This document shows positions 5,554-39,536 of a DNA stretch of 64,000 bases, piece by piece (the stretch's first letter is position 1; every line of letters starts with the position of its first letter). This DNA is from Phycisphaerae bacterium. GTDB lineage: Bacteria > Planctomycetota > Phycisphaerae > SM23-33. A model generated the notes under the pieces. That model was not told the DNA's origin. It saw only the letters and a program-made list of their open reading frames with translations, and did no database searches. The position numbers and the translations under genes were made by a program. The stretch is from positions 1 through 64,000 of the forward strand of contig WRDM01000001.1 in NCBI GenBank assembly GCA_009783465.1, read 5' to 3'.

Positions 5554-5756
5554 TCGTATGCACATTCCTCATTATCGCACGGGATTCCTGTTCAGGCGCC
5601 ACTGGCCGCAGGCCCTGCCAGTTTGCGTTGTAAGACGATGTGGGCGACAGAACGCTTCGCCTGTCACAACGATCGGCAACGCAAAATGGCAGGACCTGCG
5701 GCCAGGTGCGCCTGAACAGGAGTGTCACGCGGCAAACCGAATAATGCCCATGCGGT
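5554..5756. repeat. Long inverted repeat, family C copy 1
   Basis: Imperfect hairpin of about 200 bases filling the gap between alaS and the dehydrogenase. The arms carry GGCCGCAGGCCCTGCCAGTT and its complement. The outer ends resemble those of the copy near 30.3-30.5 kb (GCACGGGATTC and a CGTATGCAC end). Confidence 0.8.
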
Positions 5757-22149: not shown

Positions 22150-22660
22150 CGACGCTCGTGCAAATCGCTTCTACAAAAGTATAAAAAAACAAGAACTAAG
22201 GTCATTTTACCGAAAACCTAAATATCCGACTAGGCGCTTCCATCATTTTCCAAATAATTTATCGACCAATCAGAGTGCATGGGACAGAAAAAAACGGCGG
22301 ACAGCCACCGAGATTGCGATACCCATTGGTGAAATCATACCGCAGACTTGAGGGCATCGCTTCGTTAACTGGTTAACTAGTTAACTGGTGGACTAGCCGA
22401 ATTCACGAGTCAACCGGTTAACCAGTTAACGAAAAGGCTCCTTTGACTTCACGGTACAATTTCACCAACGGGCACCGCAACTTCTGATGTCTGCCGCTTT
22501 CCCCTTGCTCCACTCCCTTCGTAAACCATTCAAATATTATTTTGGCGATTTGTTTCCGTTGTTGAAGCGGCCTCCTTGGGCTGCCGAAGAAAAGATGGGC
22601 CGTAATTGCATGGCGGCGAGGGAACAGCCGCCCGGAACGTACGGCATTAGGTGGTATTCG
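22150..22660. other. Gene-free region between kinase and ParA-like gene
   Basis: About 510 bases between divergent genes. It contains an AT-rich part (22160-22260) that may hold the kinase promoter, one family B repeat (22347-22450) and an open stretch in frame with the ParA-like gene. AGGTGG before 22661 supports the chosen start of that gene. I recognise no RNA gene. Confidence 0.5.
22347..22450. repeat. GTTAAC inverted repeat, family B copy 1
   Basis: The left arm CGTTAACTGGTTAACTAGTT and a right arm with GGTTAACCAGTTAACG enclose a short loop. It is an AT-rich palindrome of about 100 bases. Confidence 0.8.
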
Positions 22661-24964
22661 ATGGCCATTCGAACGTGTATAGCGATTATTAACGAGAAGG
22701 GCGGGACCGCCAAGAGCACCACGTCGGTGAACTTGTCGGCGGCCTTGGGCGAGTTGGGGCAACGCGTCCTGCTGGTGGATCTCGACGGTCAGGCGGCCTC
22801 CTCGCGATGGGTGGGCGTGGAGGAAGACAACCGCCTCGCCGACGCCATGACGCGCGGCACCAAGCTCCAGCCCATTCCCAATGTGCTGCCCAATGTTTCG
22901 CTGATTCCCGCCAGCGGGCGGCTTGACAGCATCGCCCACGACCTGCGCCCCACGCAGGGCGGGCAGATGCGAAAACTCCTCGGCGAACTGGCCGACGATT
23001 TCGACTTCATCATCATCGACTGCCCGCCGAGCCTTGGCAACCGGCTCATCGCCAACGGCATGCTGGCGGCCACCCACGTCATCGTGCCGGTGGAAACGTC
23101 GATTCTCGCGTTGGACGGCTTGAAGATTCTGCTCACCACGCTGGAGGACATTCGCGAGGGGTTCGGCCATAACCTCGTGCTCGCGGGCGTGCTGGCGTGC
23201 CGATACGATTACCGCACACGGCTGAGCCGGTTGGTGCTCGAAGAACTCCGCCGCGCGCTGCCGGGCAAGGTCTTCAACACCGTCATTCGCGAAAACGTCC
23301 GCATGCGGGAGTGCCCCGCCAGCGGGCAATCCATTTTGACGTTCGCGCCCGACAGCTCGGCGGCGGCGGATTATCGCGCCCTGGCCGCGGAGTTGCTCGC
23401 GCCTCCGCAGGCATGGCGAAAGGAAGCCGAGCGGGCCACCGGACAAAACAGCGTGGAAAATCTGCGTAACAACACGTCCGACAAACTGCTCGACGGGCAG
23501 CGAAAAGGCCCGCCCTCCGCGCTGGAGGTCGAAGAAGACCATCTCGACCCCAACCAGGAACTGGATCACCCGACGGCCATGGAAATCGTCACGCCCGACC
23601 AGGCGCCGCAACCCGCCATGGCGGCGGCCCCCGCGCCAGCAGTGCACAACACGCCCGCGGCGCCGATGCGCGACGAACCCGCGGGCGTAAACGAGGCCGC
23701 GACGGGCGGCGGCACGCCAGCGCCGCAAGCAGCGGTCGCGTACACTCCGCCGGCTGTGAAACGACAGGACTCCCCGCCGGAAATCACCAAGGAGCAGATC
23801 CCCACGCCTCCGCCGCTGGACGGCGGAACGGACGCGCTGGCGAAATGGCTGGATCAACTGGCCACGGCGGAGAAACGCATCACCTCGCAGGGAACGGCAA
23901 ATGAGCCGGATCCGGCAAGCCACGAGCCGCCCGACATCGAAACCGACGAGGTTGCGACGGCGCCCGCGATGGCGGCCACGCCCGCCCGCATCGCGCCGCC
24001 GGAATCGGCGTCGCATCACACACCGACCGCGCCGGTGCCCGAAGCCAGGGCCGCCACCGTCAACGAATTGACGATTCCGAACATGATCCCGGAACCGCCG
24101 CCGGCCTTCCGCACGGCGGCCGCGCCGGCCATGCCGGCCGCTCCGGCGCCCGTACCGGCGCCGACTCCGGTCCCCGCGCCGGTGGCGCCACTCGAACCCG
24201 CGCTCGCGCCCGCAGCCATGATCACGCCCGCGGACGCAACGCCGCCTACGCCCGAACCGGCGCCCGCGCCCATGATGGATCTGGCGGCCTTGTTGGCCAA
24301 GGCCACCGCGGTGCCGGAAGGCGCCGGGAAAACCGTCGCGGAAGTTGCGAGCAGCCTGCACGGTTCGCACGGGGCGGCGAACGCCGCGGCGCACTCGGAG
24401 GCGGCGTTCGCGCCGGCGCCTGCCAACAAACCCGCGCCCGCGGCGGCGACAAACGAACTGAGCATGATGGAAATTCTTGCGGGCGTGAGCGCGGCCCCCG
24501 CGCCGGCGACGCCCGCGCCAATCACGCCGCAAGCGGGCGTGGCGCTGCCAAGCCTGACGGACATGCCGACCCTCAACGCGCCGACGCCGCCCAGCGCCCC
24601 GCCGCCAAAACCGACGCAGGCGGACACGCCGCCGCCCGTGATGCCGGCAGCCGCCGCCCCGGCGGCCCCGGTCGACGCCAGGCCCGCCAACGCACCCGCG
24701 CCAGCGCCCGCCAACGTCGCCCCGCCTCCGCCGGCCAGCGAGAAACCCCAAACGCCGCCGCCCGCGACGGAACACGGCGAACATGGAAATGCCAATGGAA
24801 ACGCCAACGGGAACGGGGACAATTTCCCCGCCCTGCGCGCGTACCTCAAACAGATGCAACAGGACGGGAAACTGCCCGCGAAGTCCTCGCCGCAAACCAC
24901 AACAGAGCCTCGAAAAAGTGGAGGCCTGCGATCGCTTTTCCGTAAGGTTGTCGGGCCGAAATAA
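22661..24964 (+). CDS. ParA/MinD-type ATPase with a long Pro/Ala-rich tail
   Basis: Residues 1-250 are a deviant-Walker ATPase: INEKGGTAKSTTSVNLSAAL (Walker A), LLVDLDGQAASSRW, FDFIIIDCPPSLG (Walker B). From about residue 270 to 720 the protein is a low-complexity Pro/Ala-rich chain, almost certainly unfolded. It ends in a basic patch (KSGGLRSLFRKVVGPK). No ParB gene is adjacent. Instead a GspB-like membrane protein with a similar disordered region follows three bases later, so a role in positioning an envelope machine is as likely as chromosome partition. The ATG at 22661 has AGGTGG upstream. Confidence 0.85.
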   Translation: MAIRTCIAIINEKGGTAKSTTSVNLSAALGELGQRVLLVDLDGQAASSRWVGVEEDNRLADAMTRGTKLQPIPNVLPNVSLIPASGRLDSIAHDLRPTQGGQMRKLLGELADDFDFIIIDCPPSLGNRLIANGMLAATHVIVPVETSILALDGLKILLTTLEDIREGFGHNLVLAGVLACRYDYRTRLSRLVLEELRRALPGKVFNTVIRENVRMRECPASGQSILTFAPDSSAAADYRALAAELLAPPQAWRKEAERATGQNSVENLRNNTSDKLLDGQRKGPPSALEVEEDHLDPNQELDHPTAMEIVTPDQAPQPAMAAAPAPAVHNTPAAPMRDEPAGVNEAATGGGTPAPQAAVAYTPPAVKRQDSPPEITKEQIPTPPPLDGGTDALAKWLDQLATAEKRITSQGTANEPDPASHEPPDIETDEVATAPAMAATPARIAPPESASHHTPTAPVPEARAATVNELTIPNMIPEPPPAFRTAAAPAMPAAPAPVPAPTPVPAPVAPLEPALAPAAMITPADATPPTPEPAPAPMMDLAALLAKATAVPEGAGKTVAEVASSLHGSHGAANAAAHSEAAFAPAPANKPAPAAATNELSMMEILAGVSAAPAPATPAPITPQAGVALPSLTDMPTLNAPTPPSAPPPKPTQADTPPPVMPAAAAPAAPVDARPANAPAPAPANVAPPPPASEKPQTPPPATEHGEHGNANGNANGNGDNFPALRAYLKQMQQDGKLPAKSSPQTTTEPRKSGGLRSLFRKVVGPK

Positions 24965-24966
24965 CC

Positions 24967-26478
24967 ATGAAAAAATCCAGACCCAACCTGGTGGCAGGCC
25001 GACTGAGCCACCCCCTCGCGTCAACGGGGAAAAGCACGTACGAGAAAACGCGTATGGGCTTGACCGCTCCTGACGATCCGACGCCCGATGGCGCGACGAT
25101 GGATATGCCGCCGCCCGCCGACGCGACGGAAACGACGCGAGACACGGCGAATGAAACGGCGCACGTCACACCCGACGTGCCCGCCGCGCCCGAGGTGCAG
25201 GCCCCGCCCGAGATACAGGCTCCGCTCGACGTCATTGAACACGCCGTCGCAACACCCGAAGCCGAAACGCCGCAACACGCGACACCGCAGCCATGGGAAA
25301 TCCCCGGCGAAATGGAAGCTCTGTCCGCGCCAGAACCCCAGGCCGATGCCGCGCCCGCAACACCGGAACCTTCGCCCACGCCCGCGCCGTGGGAAATGCC
25401 CGAAGCCGCTGCCGACGAACCGACGAATCCCTGGCAGCACATGATGACGCAGCCGGATATGATGATGCCGCCCGCCGTGCCGGCGGATGATCCCACGCTC
25501 GTCAATCCGTTCGCGCCAGCCGACAACACGACAACAGAACCCGCCGCAACGACGCAACCCGCCACGCAGGCCCTCCAACCGTGGGAAATGCCGCCGGCGC
25601 CCGCCGACACCGCGCCAACACAGCCAGCCGCACAGGCACCGCAGCCATGGGAAATGCCCGCGTCAGCGCCCGCCGACACCGCGCCAGCACAGCCGGCCGC
25701 GCAGGCGCCGCAACCGTGGGAGATGCCCGCGGCGACGCCCAATCTGTCTGATATTCGCGCCCAGGCCATGCAGGCGTGGAGTTCGCAATCGCAGCAGGAA
25801 TCGGAACTGGCTCCGACGGCGCCCATGCAGCCGCGACGGGCCTCCCAGGTGATACACTACATCAAGGTGGCCTCGCCGGCCCTGGGCGGACTGGTCCTGC
25901 TGGCGATCATGTACGCGCTGTGGACGTGGCTCAACGTGGATGCTCCCGCGCCCAAACCGGCGAACGCGGAGACACACAAAGCGCCGATCGTCAAGCCCGT
26001 AAACGAAACGAATGACGACGTCGATGACGAAACGGATGACGACGGAACGGACAACGGCGACGATCCGTTGTTCGCCGACGTCGATATCCCGGACGATTGG
26101 CTCAGCGGCAAGACAATCACGTTCGAGACCGAAGACGATCCGGCGCCCCAGGCCCCCAAGGCGATCACGCCGACCGTCGTCGCCCCGAAACGCCCCATGA
26201 TCCTTCGCGCGCCGCCGTCCGATCTCCGGCTGGACAGCATCGCCCAACTGAGCAAAGGCCCCGCCGCCACCATCAACGGGCGAACCCTGTACGTCGGTGA
26301 CGAGATCAACGGCGCCACGATCATCTCCATCGGGAAATTCACCGTGGACATGGAACTCAACGGCGAACGGTTCCTGCTGGGCTTCACCTTCGAAGAACCG
26401 CCCGAGCCGCCGCCCGTCGAAACGCCGGTGAAAGAAACGCCCACGCCAACCACCGGCCCGGCGACGACGGAAGAATGA
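24967..26478 (+). CDS. GspB-like membrane protein with PWEMP repeats
   Basis: A 503-residue protein. The first 290 residues are disordered and contain five copies of a PWE(I/M)P motif spaced by Ala/Pro/Thr linkers. One transmembrane helix (SPALGGLVLLAIMYALWTWL) lies near residues 300-320. The periplasmic part has acidic and Thr-rich stretches and ends in a small beta domain (ATINGRTLYVGDEINGATI, then ISIGKFTVDMELNGERFLL) that resembles the C-terminal domain of the type II secretion assembly protein GspB. It starts three bases after the ParA-like gene, so co-translation is likely. GspB homology is moderate and the exact partner is unknown. Confidence 0.7.
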   Translation: MKKSRPNLVAGRLSHPLASTGKSTYEKTRMGLTAPDDPTPDGATMDMPPPADATETTRDTANETAHVTPDVPAAPEVQAPPEIQAPLDVIEHAVATPEAETPQHATPQPWEIPGEMEALSAPEPQADAAPATPEPSPTPAPWEMPEAAADEPTNPWQHMMTQPDMMMPPAVPADDPTLVNPFAPADNTTTEPAATTQPATQALQPWEMPPAPADTAPTQPAAQAPQPWEMPASAPADTAPAQPAAQAPQPWEMPAATPNLSDIRAQAMQAWSSQSQQESELAPTAPMQPRRASQVIHYIKVASPALGGLVLLAIMYALWTWLNVDAPAPKPANAETHKAPIVKPVNETNDDVDDETDDDGTDNGDDPLFADVDIPDDWLSGKTITFETEDDPAPQAPKAITPTVVAPKRPMILRAPPSDLRLDSIAQLSKGPAATINGRTLYVGDEINGATIISIGKFTVDMELNGERFLLGFTFEEPPEPPPVETPVKETPTPTTGPATTEE

Positions 26479-28741: not shown

Positions 28742-28898
28742 ACGGGTAAATACAAACCGTTTGTTCGAGGGGACATTTTCGTTAACTCGTTAACTGGTTA
28801 ACTCGTTGATTCGTCGGAAAATCCACGAATTAACGAGTTAACGAGTCAACCAGTTAACGGAAACGTCCCCTCGAACAAACGGTTTATATTTACCCGCA
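28742..28898. repeat. GTTAAC inverted repeat, family B copy 2
   Basis: The longest copy. The outer arms CGGGTAAATACAAACCGTTT and its near complement extend into GTTCGAGGGGACATTTTCGT and then tandem GTTAACTCG/GTTAACTGG. It lies between the convergent P-type ATPase and ackA genes and is a candidate bidirectional terminator. Confidence 0.85.
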
Positions 28899-28906
28899 GG
28901 TACGTT

Positions 28907-30106
28907 TTACAACGCCTTCACGATTGTTTCCGTGTCGCGGGCGATCATGAGTTCTTCGTTGGTGGGCACGACCCAGACGGGCAGGGCGCTGTCGGGCGTG
29001 GTAATCGGGCCGCACACGCCGCGGAGCGTCGCGTCGTTGCGCTGGACGTCCAGTTTCGCGCCCAGCCTTGAGAGGCCCTCGACCACCATGCCGCGGACGG
29101 GCGTGCTGTTTTCGCCGATGCCGCCGGTGAACACCACCGCGTCCAGCGACGGCAGAATCGTCGAATACGCGCCAATATACTTGACGATGCGATACACAAA
29201 ACACTCCACGGCCAGCCGCGCCTTTTCGTTGCCGCCCTCCACGGCCGTCAACAGGTCGCGCATGTCGTTGGAGAATTCGCTCAGCCCCAGCAGGCCGCTG
29301 GATTTGTTGAGCGCCTTGTCCACCTCGCCGGGCGGCAGCCCCACGCTGGTCATGTAGAACACGACGGCCGGGTCGATGTCCCCGCTGCGCGTGCCCATGA
29401 CAAGCCCCTCCAGCGGCGTCATGCCCATCGAATGATCGACGGCCTGTCCGTTGGCGATGGCGGTCATCGAACAGCCGTTGCCCAGGTGCGCCGTGATGAC
29501 GTTGAGCTGCTCCACCGGCTTGCCCAGCAGCGCCGCCGTCTGCACGCTGACATAGCGATGGCTGGTCCCGTGGAACCCGTACCGCCGCACGTGATGCCTG
29601 GTGTACCACTCCGCGGGCACGGCGTAACGATACGCCTTGGGAGGCAGCGTCGCCAGAAAAGCCGTGTCGAACACCGCCACGTTGGGCGTGCCCGGCATGA
29701 CGGTCATCGCCGCCTCGATGCCCATGAGATTGGGCGGATTGTGCAGCGGCCCGAGCACGAAATTCTCCCGGATGATGTCGATGACGCCCTGGTCGATGAG
29801 GCAGGTGCGGGACATCTGCTTGCCGCCATGCACGACGCGATGCCCGACGGCGTCGATTTCGTCCGTGCTTGCGAGCACGCCGATCCCTGGCTCGACCAAC
29901 AGCGCGAGAATGTACTTCATCCCCTCGGTGTGATTTCGGGCCACGATGGTCCGCGTGTGTTTCTGCCCGCCGACGGTGTGTGTGAGCAACGCTTCGTCGG
30001 ACCCCACGCGTTCGACGACGCCCTTGGCCCGCACGCTTTCGTCGGCCATGTCGAACAACTGATACTTGATCGAACTGCTGCCACAATTCACGACAAAAAT
30101 GTTCAT
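28907..30106 (-). CDS. ackA: Acetate kinase
   Basis: Interconverts acetate and acetyl phosphate with ATP. It is 399 residues, the family norm. Motifs are MNIFVVNCGSSSIKYQLF, HRVVHGGKQ, VFDTAFLATLPPKAY, RYGFHGTSHRYVS, TAHLGNGCSMTAI, and GIGENSTPVRG. The ATG at 30106 matches the family start; the longer frame runs into the repeat. No pta gene is adjacent. Confidence 0.96.
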   Translation of the reverse strand: MNIFVVNCGSSSIKYQLFDMADESVRAKGVVERVGSDEALLTHTVGGQKHTRTIVARNHTEGMKYILALLVEPGIGVLASTDEIDAVGHRVVHGGKQMSRTCLIDQGVIDIIRENFVLGPLHNPPNLMGIEAAMTVMPGTPNVAVFDTAFLATLPPKAYRYAVPAEWYTRHHVRRYGFHGTSHRYVSVQTAALLGKPVEQLNVITAHLGNGCSMTAIANGQAVDHSMGMTPLEGLVMGTRSGDIDPAVVFYMTSVGLPPGEVDKALNKSSGLLGLSEFSNDMRDLLTAVEGGNEKARLAVECFVYRIVKYIGAYSTILPSLDAVVFTGGIGENSTPVRGMVVEGLSRLGAKLDVQRNDATLRGVCGPITTPDSALPVWVVPTNEELMIARDTETIVKAL

Positions 30107-30282
30107 GTCACTCTCAACGCCGCACGGCGGGGGCCTGATGCGGCCATTAGGATAGTTCGCCGGCTCGGGGTCGCCTCGCCGACATGCCAGGAACTCCGCA
30201 GGGTCGCCGCGAAATTCAACGGGTTCTATTCCTACGCCCAAATCGACCGGCTGTCAAGTCTCTCGCTTCACGCCTCAGGGCA

Positions 30283-30486
30283 AACGCATGTGCATTTTTT
30301 GGTTTTCCGCGCGACCGTTGTGTTCCGGCGCCACTGGCCACAGGCCCTGCCAGTTTGCGTTGTAAAACGGTGTGAGCGACGGAACGCTTCGTTTGCCACA
30401 ACGATCTACAACGCAAACTGGCAGGGCCTGTGGCCAGTGGCGCCGGAACATGAATCCCGTGCGAAAAAGAGGAGTACACATGCGTT
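30283..30486. repeat. Long inverted repeat, family C copy 3
   Basis: The fullest family C copy: outer ends AACGCATGTG and CACATGCGTT, then TTCCGGCGCCACTGGCCACA and CAGGCCCTGCCAGTTTGCGT with complements. The loop carries GTGAGCGACGGAACGCTTCG. It fills the gap 30107-30491 apart from about 170 bases next to ackA in which I see nothing else. Confidence 0.85.
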
Positions 30487-30491
30487 GCCTC

Positions 30492-31268
30492 TCACTCCTC
30501 CACGCCCACCACATCGCGATCATTCCTCGCCGTAATCGCCGCGCCGGGCGGGACGATCAGAAAATCCTCGTCCCACTTGGCCCAGAAGAGTTTTTTGAGC
30601 AGGGTCATGTCGCCGGGCCGTTCTTCGAACCGCCAGTTGTGCTTGGCTGCCTCGGCGCGGGCCTGTTCTACGAACGTCGTCTCGTCGCACACGCCCATCG
30701 AGAGATACAAACAGTTGCTGTAATTGGCCCGCCAATCGCCAAGGCTTTCGAGAATGAAATCCGCGTTCTCCTTGCCGTATTGGGCGACCATTTCCTCGTA
30801 CGTGCCCGCCAGGCCGAGTTTGCCCATCACGCCGGTTTTTCCGTACGCCGGCTGCGCGTAGTCGCCCGTGCCGTAGAGGTTCCGCTCCGCCCAGCCGGTC
30901 GTGAGATAATACGTGCCCGGATGCTCGTCGAAGTACGCCTGGTACTTCGCGCGCGAGCCGAAGAACAACGTGATGCAATCGTGGGCGCGCGGCAGGATCA
31001 GCGGCAGTTGCCTCGCCCGCACGCCGGCAACGCCGTCGTTGCATCGCGCGTAGCCCAGCAAAATCGCTTCGTACTGCGAAGCGCCCACCGCGTCGATCGT
31101 CGCCTGAATCTTCGCGACCATGTCCGCCCGCTCGAGATCGTGAAGCCCCTTGCGGAGAAACTCCACGTCCACCTGATGCGGCGTGGAAGCGGCCAGGTGA
31201 CAGGCTTCGCGATAGACGATTTCGCACCCGATAAACTTAAATCGCCGTTGTGGGGAGGTTGTTTTCAT
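30492..31268 (-). CDS. DUF1638-like protein of unknown function
   Basis: A 258-residue soluble protein reading FKFIGCEIVYREACHLAAST near its start, then HQVDVEFLRKGLHDL, ILLGYARCNDG, and RAHDCITLFFGSR, which I associate with the DUF1638 family (often found near methyltransferases and corrinoid systems). Conserved Cys15, Cys86 and His residues could bind a metal or cofactor. It is 5 bases upstream of the hexuloisomerase gene in minus-strand order terms (that gene is read first), so they probably share a transcript. No function can be assigned. Confidence 0.65.
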   Translation of the reverse strand: MKTTSPQRRFKFIGCEIVYREACHLAASTPHQVDVEFLRKGLHDLERADMVAKIQATIDAVGASQYEAILLGYARCNDGVAGVRARQLPLILPRAHDCITLFFGSRAKYQAYFDEHPGTYYLTTGWAERNLYGTGDYAQPAYGKTGVMGKLGLAGTYEEMVAQYGKENADFILESLGDWRANYSNCLYLSMGVCDETTFVEQARAEAAKHNWRFEERPGDMTLLKKLFWAKWDEDFLIVPPGAAITARNDRDVVGVEE

Positions 31269-31273
31269 ACCAT

Positions 31274-31822
31274 TTATTCCAGATTCGCGTGCCGCTGCCA
31301 GAAAGCAGTCTGATCGAGTTTGAGGCGTTCGGAGAGGACGTTGAATACGGCGTCGAGGCAGAGGCTTGTTGCGTGTTCGAAGATGGCCGCCCGGAAGACG
31401 ATGTCGTCGTCGTCAGCCGGGACGAGAACGGTTTTGTCGCCGTCGTGCGCCATCGGGCTGGCGGCGTCGGAGGTGATGACGACGACCGCCGCGCCAAGCT
31501 GCCGGGCACGCTGGACGAAATAATCGCTGATGCCCGTCTTGCCCGTGCAACTGATGGCCACCAGCAGATCGCCAGGCCCGGTGGCGGGCGTGATCGTCTC
31601 GCCGGGAATGTAGGCCGTCAGCCCCGCGTGCATCAGCCGCATGCCGAAGCTTCGCGCGACCAGCCCGCTGCGTCCGGCGCCCCAGACAAACGTCCGCCGG
31701 GCCCGAGGCAGCCGATCCGCCAACTCCAGAAAATCCGCCCACTCCACCCGCCGCATCACGCCGGCAATGCGGTCAAGCAGTTGTTGACCCGCTAATTGAA
31801 CGGCATCTTTTTCCGTGGACAT
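31274..31822 (-). CDS. hxlB: 6-phospho-3-hexuloisomerase (SIS domain)
   Basis: Converts hexulose-6-phosphate to fructose-6-phosphate in the ribulose monophosphate pathway. A single SIS domain of 182 residues, with FVWGAGRSGLVARSFGMRLMH, then LVAISCTGKTG and VVVITSD, and the typical end AIFEHATSLCLDAVFNVLSE. GGGAG lies seven bases ahead of the ATG at 31822. Its partner hexulose-phosphate synthase is encoded just upstream in the same orientation, with a family B repeat between. Confidence 0.87.
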   Translation of the reverse strand: MSTEKDAVQLAGQQLLDRIAGVMRRVEWADFLELADRLPRARRTFVWGAGRSGLVARSFGMRLMHAGLTAYIPGETITPATGPGDLLVAISCTGKTGISDYFVQRARQLGAAVVVITSDAASPMAHDGDKTVLVPADDDDIVFRAAIFEHATSLCLDAVFNVLSERLKLDQTAFWQRHANLE

Positions 31823-31879
31823 CGTTTTACTCCCAAAAGCCACACAGGGCCTGCATAACTCAACGGCAAATGGTGCCGT

Positions 31880-31990
31880 CAGTTCGAGGGAATCTTTTCG
31901 TTAACTCGTTAATTCGTTAACCAGTTTGCCGAACTACGAGTCAACGAGTTAACTCATTAACGAGTCAACGAAAAGACGCCATCGTACAAA
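31880..31990. repeat. GTTAAC inverted repeat, family B copy 3
   Basis: Arms TTCGAGGGAATCTTTTCGTT and the imperfect complement near 31965-31985, with tandem GTTAACTCGTTAATTCG inside. It lies between hxlB and hxlA-rraA. Confidence 0.75.
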
Positions 31991-32037
31991 TCGCTCACTT
32001 TCACCCACACGCCTCGTAAGCCCTATGTGGCTTGTGG

Positions 32038-33324
32038 CTACTTCTTTTCCCATCGCGCCAGGTTCGCCACTTTCGCCAGCGTGCTGCCTGCCCGGATTTC
32101 GTCGCGGAGGCGGTTTTCCGATTCCAGGACGTCCAGCGCGCGGTTGACCATTTCCACCGCGCGGGCTTTGGGAAGCACCATCACGCCGTCGTCGTCGGCG
32201 ACGATCCAGTCGCCCGGCTCGATCCGCTGCCCGGCGATCACGATCGGCACGTTGATGTCGCCGGCGCCCATCGGGTCGCTGGCATGGCTGGTGACGTGGC
32301 GGGTCCAGACGGGGAAGCCCAGCCGACGGATGTCGGCCGTATCGCGGACCGCGCCGTGGCAGACCAGTCCCGCCAGGCCGTTGCCGACGGCGCTTTCGGT
32401 AGCCAATTCGCCCCACAGCGCCGGCGGCTGACCGCCCGCATCGACGACGATCACCTCGCCCTCGCGGGCGACGTCGATCGCCTGCACCGGCTTGGACCAG
32501 TCGCCCGGAAACGTCCGCACCGTGACGGCAGGCCCCGCGACGAGCTTGCCGGGAATCAGCGGCCAGAGGCCTTCCAGGCACGGCTGACGGTGCGAGCCGT
32601 CGGAGAGGTTGCTCGTGCGGACTTGGGAGATCAGGTCGCGGAGGTTGGCGGCGGTGGAGCGTTTGAACAGGGAGGTCGCGACGGCCTGCCCGCTGTCGAT
32701 CGCGCGGCGGATGGCCGCCGTCGCCAACCGCGGATCGACCGCCTTCGTCACCGCGCCGCCGACGATCACCACGTCGGCACCGGCTTCAACCGCCAAGGCG
32801 GCCGTCTCGGAGTTGATCCCGCCCGCGACGGCCAGCGTCAGTTCCGTCACGCGGCGGACCTGCTTTAGTAATTCCAGCGGATCCTCGCCCTGCATCTGTG
32901 CGTCGATGGCGCAATGCACGTCCACCCACGACACGCCCCACTCGGCCAGCCGACGCGAGAACGTCACCGGGTCGGCGACGCCCAGCAGATCGACGGCCAC
33001 CTGCACGCCGTAATGTTTGCCCGTCTCCACGCACTCGCGGATGGTGAACGGCGTGGCCGTCCCGCTGACGGTGACGATGGTCGCCCCCGCCTTGGCGGCG
33101 GCCTCGGTCTCGATCCGTCCGGCGTCCATCGTTTTCATGTCCGCGACGATGGGCGTGTCGGGAAACAGGTCCCGCAGCCGGCGGACGGCGTCGAGGCCCT
33201 CGCTTTTGATCAGCGGCGTGCCGGCCTCCAGCACGTCCGCCCCGCCCGCGACGGCAGCCTTCGCCACCGCCACCGCGCGGCCCAGCTCCAGAAAATCCAA
33301 CGCCACTTGAAGTTTCGTGCTCAT
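32038..33324 (-). CDS. hxlA: 3-hexulose-6-phosphate synthase fused to an RraA-like domain
   Basis: Residues 1-210 form an OMP-decarboxylase-like TIM barrel: LQVALDFLELGRAVAVAK, VADMKTMDAGRIETEAA, VDVHCAIDAQMQG, AVAGGINSETA and VIVGGAVTKA. This is the synthase joining formaldehyde to ribulose 5-phosphate. Residues about 225-428 are RraA/demethylmenaquinone-methyltransferase-like (GPAVTVRTFPGDW, GELATESAVGNGLAGLVCHG, VRDTADI). Such HPS-RraA fusions are known, mainly in archaea. With hxlB next to it the pair may fix or remove formaldehyde or make ribose phosphate. The RraA domain's role is uncertain. Confidence 0.9.
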   Translation of the reverse strand: MSTKLQVALDFLELGRAVAVAKAAVAGGADVLEAGTPLIKSEGLDAVRRLRDLFPDTPIVADMKTMDAGRIETEAAAKAGATIVTVSGTATPFTIRECVETGKHYGVQVAVDLLGVADPVTFSRRLAEWGVSWVDVHCAIDAQMQGEDPLELLKQVRRVTELTLAVAGGINSETAALAVEAGADVVIVGGAVTKAVDPRLATAAIRRAIDSGQAVATSLFKRSTAANLRDLISQVRTSNLSDGSHRQPCLEGLWPLIPGKLVAGPAVTVRTFPGDWSKPVQAIDVAREGEVIVVDAGGQPPALWGELATESAVGNGLAGLVCHGAVRDTADIRRLGFPVWTRHVTSHASDPMGAGDINVPIVIAGQRIEPGDWIVADDDGVMVLPKARAVEMVNRALDVLESENRLRDEIRAGSTLAKVANLARWEKK

Positions 33325-35333: not shown

Positions 35334-35450
35334 CGCATGTTCGAAGGAACCTTTTCGTTAACTCGTTAACTGGTGAATTCGTTAACTCGCGGATTTGCTA
35401 ACGAATCAACGAGTTAACGAGTTCACGAAAAGGTTCCCTCGAACATGCGG
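35334..35450. repeat. GTTAAC inverted repeat, family B copy 4
   Basis: Outer arms CCGCATGTTCGAAGGAACCT and its near complement ending CGAACATGCGG, with GTTAACTCG repeats in between. It sits between convergent genes. Confidence 0.85.
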
Positions 35451-35497: not shown

Positions 35498-36562
35498 TCA
35501 ATACGCTCCCACGTCCTTGACGATCGCGATGATTCGGCGGAAGTCTTCCAGGCTGACGTTGTCGGGGATCGAGTGGTCCGTGGCCCAGATGTAGCCGCCG
35601 TTTTTCTTGAGTTCCGGCAGTTTTTCGCGGATTTCCTGTTCCATCGCGTCGAGGCGGTCCCAGAGGACCGCGTTCATGCCGCCGTGCAGCACGAGCTTGT
35701 CGCCGTAGCGCCGCTTGGCGTCGAGCGTGTCCACGCCGGCTTTGACCTCCAGCGGGTTGAGCGCGTCCAGGCCGATGTCGAGGAAGTCGCCGATCAGCGA
35801 GCGGATGTCGCCGCAACTGTGCAGCCGGGCCTTCATGCCGCGGCGGTGGGCCCACTCGATCGCCCGGCCATGCACGGGCTTGAGCAGCTCGCGGTACATC
35901 GTCGGCGACATGAACGTATGGCCTTTGTATCCCAGATCGTCGGGCCAGGTCACGCAGTCGAACGTGTAGCCCTCGGCCAGCATCATCTCGAACAGGGCGA
36001 TGTGCGTGTCCAGTTGCGTGTTCCACATGTCCACCAGCCAGTCGGGATCCTCGACCAGGGCCATCAGCACCCGCTCCGTGCCGACCATCCACGAGTGCGT
36101 CACGTCAAAGCCGAACCAGAGGTTGGCTTCGACCCACGCGCCGGCCTGCCGCCAGGTGGGGTAGTCCTTCTTGAGTTGCGCCCAGTTGACGCGATCGCGC
36201 GAGGGCGTGATGCGTTTTTTGATTTCCCGCCACGCGTCGGCGGAGTGGATGCGGAAGTCGATGAAATCCGGCGTGGAGGCGATGTGTTTCCAGTTTTTGA
36301 GTTTCGCGCCCCAGGAGGTTTCGACGACGGTGTATTCGTCGGTCTCTTCGAGGGTGCGCTGCTCGAACTGCGGGCCGTTGTCGGCGCCGACGCCGACGGC
36401 CCAGTCGAGGTCGAAATAATGCTGCCAGTTGGCGCCCGCGGGCATGCCCTCGCGATGCCACCGCTCCAGCGTCGTCCCCCACGGGCTGTCGAGAATCGGC
36501 ACGCGGTCGGCGGCGGTGTGGGCAAACATTCGCGAAAAACGCTCACGACTGGTCATGGCCAT
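35498..36562 (-). CDS. Uroporphyrinogen decarboxylase (URO-D) family protein
   Basis: A 354-residue TIM barrel. SRERFSRMFAHTAADRVPILD at the start, WPDDLGYKGHTFMSPTMYRE, MKARLHSCGDIRSLIGDFLD, LNPLEVKAGVDT and LHGGMNAVLW are typical of the corrinoid methyltransferase-like branch rather than of haem-synthesis HemE: a HxCGD motif replaces the porphyrin pocket. AAGGAGAC precedes the ATG at 36562. It may act on a methylated substrate or a sugar; the partner corrinoid protein is not in the window. Confidence 0.85.
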   Translation of the reverse strand: MAMTSRERFSRMFAHTAADRVPILDSPWGTTLERWHREGMPAGANWQHYFDLDWAVGVGADNGPQFEQRTLEETDEYTVVETSWGAKLKNWKHIASTPDFIDFRIHSADAWREIKKRITPSRDRVNWAQLKKDYPTWRQAGAWVEANLWFGFDVTHSWMVGTERVLMALVEDPDWLVDMWNTQLDTHIALFEMMLAEGYTFDCVTWPDDLGYKGHTFMSPTMYRELLKPVHGRAIEWAHRRGMKARLHSCGDIRSLIGDFLDIGLDALNPLEVKAGVDTLDAKRRYGDKLVLHGGMNAVLWDRLDAMEQEIREKLPELKKNGGYIWATDHSIPDNVSLEDFRRIIAIVKDVGAY

Positions 36563-36584
36563 GGGACGGTCTCCTTGTGTGGCG

Positions 36585-36625
36585 TTCTTTTTACCACAGA
36601 GACGCGGAGGATACAGAGAGAAAAC
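36585..36625. repeat. ACCACAGAGACGCGGAGG-type repeat fragment
   Basis: TTTACCACAGAGACGCGGAG upstream of the URO-D gene resembles an intergenic repeat I recall from related phyla. It occurs once here, so its repeat nature is not shown by this window. Confidence 0.3.
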
Positions 36626-36796
36626 GTAGATGTTGAAAAACGGTCGTTGTGGAAAACTTTTTTCGCGCGGCGGCATGTTGGGGCGGTTGGGGAAGTAACG
36701 GCGGCGGGCGGCGTGTGGACTTTATCGCGCCACGACGATGCGGGCTTGATTTTCATGCGGCAATGGCCATGATGCTCTCCCTTGGAGCCCACACGC

Positions 36797-38936: not shown

Positions 38937-39536
38937 ACAATCTTTCCTATCGCATCTTTCTTATCGGCATCGTGGCGGCGATGCTTTTGTATCGTATTGT
39001 TTCCAAAACGACGCAACGGCAGCGATTTGACCCGGTGCCGGGAGTGTTTGATCGTGCCCCCGCCAGACGGCAGACGCGCACACTGGACACTTGGGTGAAC
39101 GTGTTCCGTTGATTCGAGAGAACGTTTTCGTTCATTCATCGACTCGTTGACTCGGGAACCCCCGCCAGTCAACGAGTTATCCAGTGAACGAGTTAACGGA
39201 AGTGTTCCCTCGAACTGGCGATGCGATTTTACCGTTGGGCCGCGGAATGCGTTCTCCCAAAAATTGGGGTAGGCAGTATAGCGAACATGGGTATGATAAA
39301 TAGGATCCAGGTGGGGATGAAGTCCGTATTCAGGCCCAGGGGTGATCGGGCCGATGATGAACGTATGGTAGCACGCCCTCTTCGCGGCAAATAGGTGGTT
39401 TTACCCGCGAAACGAGGATATACTCAGGTGTTCGATCGAGTGATGAAATTCCGAAAGGCGAGAAAGGTTTTGCCCGATGGTGCTATCAGCACGGGTGTCA
39501 TTGAGTCATCCGTGACGGCACAGGGGTGGTAATTAC
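38937..39536. other. Gene-free 600-base region upstream of the exopolysaccharide locus
   Basis: It holds one family B repeat (39112-39216) and otherwise no gene, RNA motif or confident promoter. The segment 39240-39530 probably contains the promoter and leader of the polysaccharide locus. I saw no riboswitch consensus. Confidence 0.5.
39112..39216. repeat. GTTAAC inverted repeat, family B copy 5 (degenerate)
   Basis: GATTCGAGAGAACGTTTTCG on the left and GTTAACGGAAGTGTTCCCTC on the right; the inner tandem units have drifted (GTTCATTCATCGACTCGTT). Confidence 0.75.

Follow-up and report, generated by a model that had tools for sequence, protein, structure and literature searches.

The stretch analysed here is 64,000 nucleotides (nt) of planctomycete DNA, referred to throughout as the window, and our subject is a run of three consecutive genes on its minus strand: hxlA-rraA, hxlB and a gene encoding a protein of the DUF1638 family. 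A preliminary description of the window had reported this order and strand, which we confirm, and had suggested that the set could deal with formaldehyde released by demethylation. Only 5 nt separate the hxlB stop from the start of the DUF1638 gene. The three genes are as follows.

32038-33324, minus strand: hxlA-rraA, 428 amino acids (Pfam, NCBIfam and PDB sequence matches)
31274-31843, minus strand: hxlB, 6-phospho-3-hexuloisomerase (PHI) with an SIS domain, 189 amino acids from GTG (TIGR03127 and 1jeo matches)
30492-31268, minus strand: DUF1638 protein of the 'b' type, 258 amino acids (PF07796, alignments, AlphaFold2 model)

The hxlA-rraA and hxlB pair

The product of hxlA-rraA combines an OMPdecase/HUMPS domain (residues 3-204) with an RraA-like domain (residues 237-383) in Pfam, and passes the TIGR03128 model for HxlA (200.2 bits, cut-off 200). 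The NF005442 model, 'bifunctional hexulose-6-phosphate synthase/ribonuclease regulator', covers residues 3-428 at 538 bits, below its cut-off of 593. Because the score falls short of that cut-off, which just 1 of the 392 genomes of our phylum sample reaches, the predicted protein is labelled a relative of the NF005442 fusion type and not the equivalog. The nearest solved hexulose-6-phosphate synthase (HPS) to the HxlA half is 9lj9_B (E 1.5e-52), whose VADLKTMDTG aligns with VADMKTMDAG; a further match, to 3ajx (E 4e-34), also aligns VADMKTMD, which contains the functional D-x-K-x-x-D motif of HPS. The RraA half matches the aldolase/decarboxylase 3noj (E 6.9e-24). HxlB reaches 149.9 bits against TIGR03127 (E 6.7e-44), under the cut-off of 160, and matches MJ1247 (1jeo; E 2e-22); its true start is probably the ATG at 31822, which follows a GGGAG and would give 182 amino acids. 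The earlier assignment of ribulose monophosphate (RuMP) enzymes with an RraA fusion is borne out by these matches.

The pairing itself is conserved close to home. Among 60 relatives of the window's genome (G000), hxlA-rraA directly precedes hxlB in 22 of the 25 hxlB-bearing genomes of the family or order, the exceptions being G393, G407 and G408. Outside the order the two genes are mostly unlinked, the single adjacent pair of the fusion type noticed in the phylum listings being that of G284, and in G441 an hxlA without RraA adjoins hxlB. The intergenic gap in the window is 194 nt (215 nt to the ATG at 31822) and contains a palindromic repeat; elsewhere the gap is 44 nt or less, or the genes overlap, in 17 of 19 compared loci.

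On sequence grounds, hxlA-rraA and hxlB are thus a conserved HPS-PHI pair of the RuMP pathway. They share the domains of RuMP HPS-PHI (hxlA-hxlB) and of the PRK07028/NF005442 fusion, and the HPS motif is present here too; they depart from the curated families in that both HxlB and the fusion score under the cut-offs, and in the widening of the pair by a repeat. Such a pair would convert ribulose 5-phosphate and formaldehyde into fructose 6-phosphate or catalyse the reverse reaction, and either direction is possible: forward to fix or remove formaldehyde, or backward to supply pentose phosphates. One study (PMC12057145) already proposes formaldehyde use by hxlAB in an anaerobe of the Planctomycetes–Verrucomicrobia–Chlamydiae (PVC) superphylum that is thought to ferment methylamines, and the RuMP part of the locus is therefore not new. 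A search of the open-licence PMC literature found no paper joining 'hexulose-6-phosphate synthase' and 'RraA'; the same literature yielded three papers for DUF1638 and one for PF07796.

DUF1638 in corrinoid systems

The DUF1638 protein of the window matches PF07796 at 126 bits, against a gathering cut-off of 27. Across genomes, the family keeps company with the RACo/RamA reductases (PF14574). Every one of the 46 phylum genomes with DUF1638 has RACo, versus 79 of the 346 without (p 2e-26), and so does each of the 37 DUF1638 genomes among the 60 relatives, versus 12 of the other 23; the two-by-two tables were compiled by hand from genome listings. The window's own genome carries RACo as well (G000:C44), and in at least 14 of the 46 phylum genomes DUF1638 and RACo lie within 5 kb of each other.

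Gene neighbourhoods were counted on draft contigs, where genes on different contigs register as 'not seen linked', first by mechanical clustering of open reading frames and then in a tblastn check on 61 stretches, 59 of which matched DUF1638 (L141 and L167 did not). Both a corrinoid protein and RACo fall within 6 kb of DUF1638 in 9 of the 36 matching stretches that are not of the window's type (L113, L146, L148, L152, L153, L154, L157, L162 and L163; L113 and L321 are one and the same place), while L320 represents a tenth genome with all three together. Of the 80 loci in a wider collection, 55 fall below 53% identity; in this group the neighbours of DUF1638 include a corrinoid protein (22 loci), RACo (15 loci) and, at 20 loci each, a homocysteine methyltransferase and a URO-D protein. 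The preliminary remark that DUF1638 often accompanies one-carbon systems holds in this more specific form, as a corrinoid link: that DUF1638 belongs to such systems is supported.

Fusions bring DUF1638 and ATPases into a single chain. An 803-amino-acid frame in L148 joins it to RACo, a single case, and ten scanned frames (L003, L115, L116, L118, L121, L143, L144, L145, L149 and L156) join it to two hydantoinase-A domains, which form an ASKHA ATPase; the L143 fusion is cut by a contig end, and L112, split into two overlapping frames, is excluded from the ten. The second DUF1638 gene of the window's genome (L003:5844-8828) is one of these hydantoinase-A fusions. Most of the ten are weakly similar to MutL, a protein of B12-enzyme repair. 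That DUF1638 has been joined to two different ASKHA ATPases points to a common working step.

Conserved residues offer a hint of what that step might involve. C15, H43, C76, H96, D97 and C98 are invariant in two DUF1638 alignments, of 28 and 66 sequences (L237 was absent from the cluster aligned, and alignment A2 took in all but 14 of the other 79 wider loci). Of 60 aligned sequences, all 48 free proteins and all 12 fused domains retain C15, H43, C76 and C98. In the AlphaFold2 model of the window's protein (mean predicted local distance difference test score 91.5), each of these four would sit just after one of four successive strand ends (strands 9-14, 32-37, 68-72 and 90-93), their closeness being judged from those ends; active sites in folds of this kind usually lie at such a position. 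Foldseek returned no match to the model at E 0.001 or better. A second fold comparison gave asparaginases as its best match (Z 6.4), then racemases and sugar-binding proteins, a similarity that may be merely the common alpha/beta arrangement, and when PDB sequences were searched with the aligned DUF1638 family, the best E was 0.028 and no plausible relative emerged.

The identity of the enzyme served is suggested by methionine synthase (MetH). A MetH that includes the activation domain is found in 10 of the 11 RACo-negative relatives (the genome of the remaining one, G404, is 57% complete), while 43 of the 49 RACo-positive relatives show no such MetH and 6 have both; a relative thus tends to carry either RACo or the MetH activation domain, one in place of the other. 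In the window's genome, which is 70% complete, MetH is represented by corrinoid and pterin pieces only (648-851 and 342-595 of 1182). This replacement fits published genetics. In PMC5764234, a Phaeobacter DUF1638 mutant and a RamA-like mutant are both rescued by methionine, and a similar overlap is noted by its authors for Sinorhizobium; the replacement also fits a prediction for Ruegeria (PMC12478193). The DUF1638 proteins concerned, PGA1_c13340 of Phaeobacter inhibens and SPO2162 of Ruegeria pomeroyi, belong to the same Pfam family as the window's protein and are likened to it on that basis; the two studies tie them, via mutant fitness or protein abundance, to methionine synthesis or growth on N-osmolytes. 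The window's genome resembles their case in having RACo and a piecemeal MetH in which the activation domain was not found. Unlike them, the window's DUF1638 gene sits behind hxlB, and in a subgroup usually near nadE.

Reading the three genes together

Adjacency of DUF1638 and hxlB appears peculiar to the window. In the phylum sample DUF1638 occurs in 46 genomes, hxlB in 123 and both in 22, and the two are found together in 25 of the 60 relatives; of the 46 genomes having both (the window's own counted once), linkage is seen in one, the window's. The nearest approaches elsewhere are G405, where a DUF1638 of the fused type and hxlB share a contig 20 kb apart, and L197, one of the 80 wider loci, where an HxlB-like SIS protein (38% identical) is encoded 1 kb off on the opposite strand. 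DUF1638 as a conserved member of an hxl operon is rejected on this count and on the neighbour surveys. In terms of presence, hxlB is found in 22 of 46 phylum genomes with DUF1638 and 101 of 346 without (p 0.017), but among RACo-positive phylum genomes the association vanishes (22 of 46 versus 38 of 79, p 1.0). A tree test of DUF1638 against hxlB left just two to three independent contrasts with branch support, not enough to tell whether their co-occurrence among relatives goes beyond common ancestry; the RACo tree (34 genomes, one RACo each) has two deep clades and one long row, with bootstrap support unsettled.

From the genes, co-occurrences, fusions and conserved residues at hand we can sketch a history and a reaction. 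With reasonable though far from complete confidence, we read the locus as two functions side by side: an HPS-PHI pair, and a DUF1638 partner in corrinoid reactivation that stands behind hxlB by chance. What looks like a three-gene formaldehyde module has probably arisen by chance at this one locus; in the likeliest history, a gene linked to B12 has moved in behind hxlB in this lineage, and it is probably co-transcribed with hxlB. The DUF1638 family would work with ASKHA-type ATPases of the RACo/RamA kind, which convert oxidised cob(II)alamin back into cob(I)alamin. Unlike these, DUF1638 is no ATPase and would be an extra partner: C15, H43, C76 and C98 would form a metal or iron-sulfur (Fe-S) site, and the protein would relay electrons to the corrinoid protein, or dock it, during ATP-driven reduction. 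The enzyme served here would most likely be a split methionine synthase without activation domain.

A bolder generalization, to which we give somewhat less than even credence, is that DUF1638 serves ASKHA ATPases generally when corrinoids are repaired. Its metal or Fe-S domain of the Cys3-His kind would pass ATP-gated electrons to corrinoid proteins, whether free, fused to RACo or fused to a hydantoinase-A-type ATPase, and that ATPase would represent a second class of corrinoid reactivase, so far unrecognised. In either form, a role for DUF1638, for which the methionine-linking genetic study (PMC5764234) makes no specific proposal, becomes testable, and the routes to it are the ASKHA fusions, the nesting of the family within RACo-positive genomes and the four conserved candidate ligands. 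While a formaldehyde module as such would be an ordinary finding, this by-product concerning DUF1638 matters more.

Several observations weigh against pairing DUF1638 with corrinoid reactivation at this locus. The correspondence is inexact, since 12 RACo-positive relatives are without DUF1638 and 6 DUF1638 genomes also hold MetH with the activation domain; within the family, RACo co-occurrence has little power because 33 of 35 genomes carry RACo. No corrinoid or RACo match lies within 6 kb of the window's DUF1638 (tblastn), and among the 23 window-type stretches a corrinoid gene is near one (L139) and RACo near none; the 25 window-like loci of the wider collection repeat this, with a corrinoid protein at one and RACo at none. 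No homocysteine-binding piece of MetH was found in the window's genome, at 70% completeness, and PDB and fold searches supplied neither a solved relative nor a clear fold match to back an Fe-S or metal site. Finally, DUF1638 and hxlB do keep company near the window's genome: hxlB is present in 25 of 37 DUF1638 genomes versus 4 of 23 others among the relatives (p 0.0002), in 25 of 37 versus 3 of 12 among RACo-positive relatives (p 0.017), and the co-occurrence within the family is 19 of 21 versus 4 of 14 (p 0.0003).

The surroundings of the window's closest DUF1638 relatives (22 stretches, 50-71% identical) raise the prospect that the 'b' type has left the corrinoid system for a role tied to nicotinamide adenine dinucleotide (NAD) synthesis or to a zinc-ribbon membrane protein. 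By tblastn, nadE lies within 6 kb of DUF1638 in 12 of these 22 stretches and a zinc-ribbon protein in 13, and no common neighbour was seen in the wider loci from other-phylum records (part of 17 of the 80). We nonetheless regard such a departure as unlikely: the residues common to the corrinoid type are all kept, the zinc-ribbon relative in the window's genome is on a different contig in a stretch with no nadE match, and at one locus (L139/L323, genome G403) a window-type DUF1638 is directly followed by a corrinoid gene. The zinc-ribbon protein itself (L122:5044-6846 and 12 further stretches) has no Pfam match and mostly lies between nadE and a window-type DUF1638.

Rather less probable again is that DUF1638 acts as a sensor or chaperone of corrinoid proteins and not as a redox partner. 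The idea draws on L167:5474-9347, where the start of a 727-amino-acid PAS histidine kinase scores weakly as DUF1638 (37 bits, cut-off 27) and the kinase gene overlaps that of a B12-binding and URO-D protein, but this is a single distant case among the loci inspected, and the other fusions are all to ATPases.

When a corrinoid passes its methyl group to pterin or homocysteine, no formaldehyde is expected to be released. This chemistry, the linkage unseen in the other 45 genomes, the lack of association among RACo-positive phylum genomes and the missing corrinoid and RACo matches near the window's gene together make it very improbable that the three genes form one module in which DUF1638 aids a demethylating corrinoid system and HPS-PHI fixes its formaldehyde, notwithstanding the 5-nt gap, the co-occurrence in relatives, family and RACo-positive relatives, and the formaldehyde use that PMC12057145 proposes for hxlAB in a PVC anaerobe. 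The formaldehyde unit of the preliminary description accordingly lacks support where DUF1638 is concerned, and the co-conservation with hxlA/hxlB that it had named as a check divides: it fails in position, while in presence it holds among relatives and not within RACo-positive phylum genomes.

Neighbouring genes and repeats

Further features flank or interrupt the three genes.

28907-30241, minus strand: ackA-family acetate/propionate kinase, the next gene downstream of DUF1638 (TIGR00016, 480 bits)
35498-36676, minus strand: URO-D superfamily protein (PF01208, 52.6 bits)
31882-31987: palindromic repeat within the widened hxlA-hxlB gap, with 45-nt arms that are 80% complementary
30303-30468: long inverted repeat between DUF1638 and ackA, with 72-nt arms

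Membership of ackA in a unit with these genes was rejected: an ackA match is absent from the 60 other DUF1638 stretches (L112-L170 and L003) and from the 19 hxl stretches (L171 and L176-L193) compared. The URO-D/methyltransferase-like gene that had been pointed out nearby is indeed there, 2.2 kb upstream of hxlA, but two plus-strand genes, one PyrK-like (electron transfer) and one pilin-like, intervene, and its identity as an MtaA/CmuA methyltransferase does not stand (TIGR01463, 37.9 bits against a cut-off of 235.4). A PDB sequence search with the protein gave no match at E 0.001. Judged by its sequence and position, the gene is outside the unit and a methyltransferase identity is unproven. 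More broadly, tblastn places a URO-D match no more than 6 kb from DUF1638 in 2 of the 22 stretches that share the window's type and in 7 of the 36 that do not. A promoter scan found no sigma-70-like site.

The palindromic repeat of the hxlA-hxlB gap is based on TTCGTTAACTCGTTAA and recurs in the window (22361-22433, 28778-28845, 31882-31987, 35354-35429 and 39185-39200), several copies being intergenic. With up to 2 mismatches, TTCGTTAACTCGTTAA has 12 matches versus 0.03 expected, and among 323 other loci exact copies are confined to two, both covering the window itself. The core of the 72-nt-arm repeat is found again at 5599-5621 and on another contig (L317:1617-1714); the copy at 30303-30468 is perhaps a transcript end or a mobile repeat. 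Elsewhere in the window, very long minus-strand open frames at 24016-25024 face a proline/alanine-rich gene on the plus strand (22487-24964), and are probably shadows of its composition.

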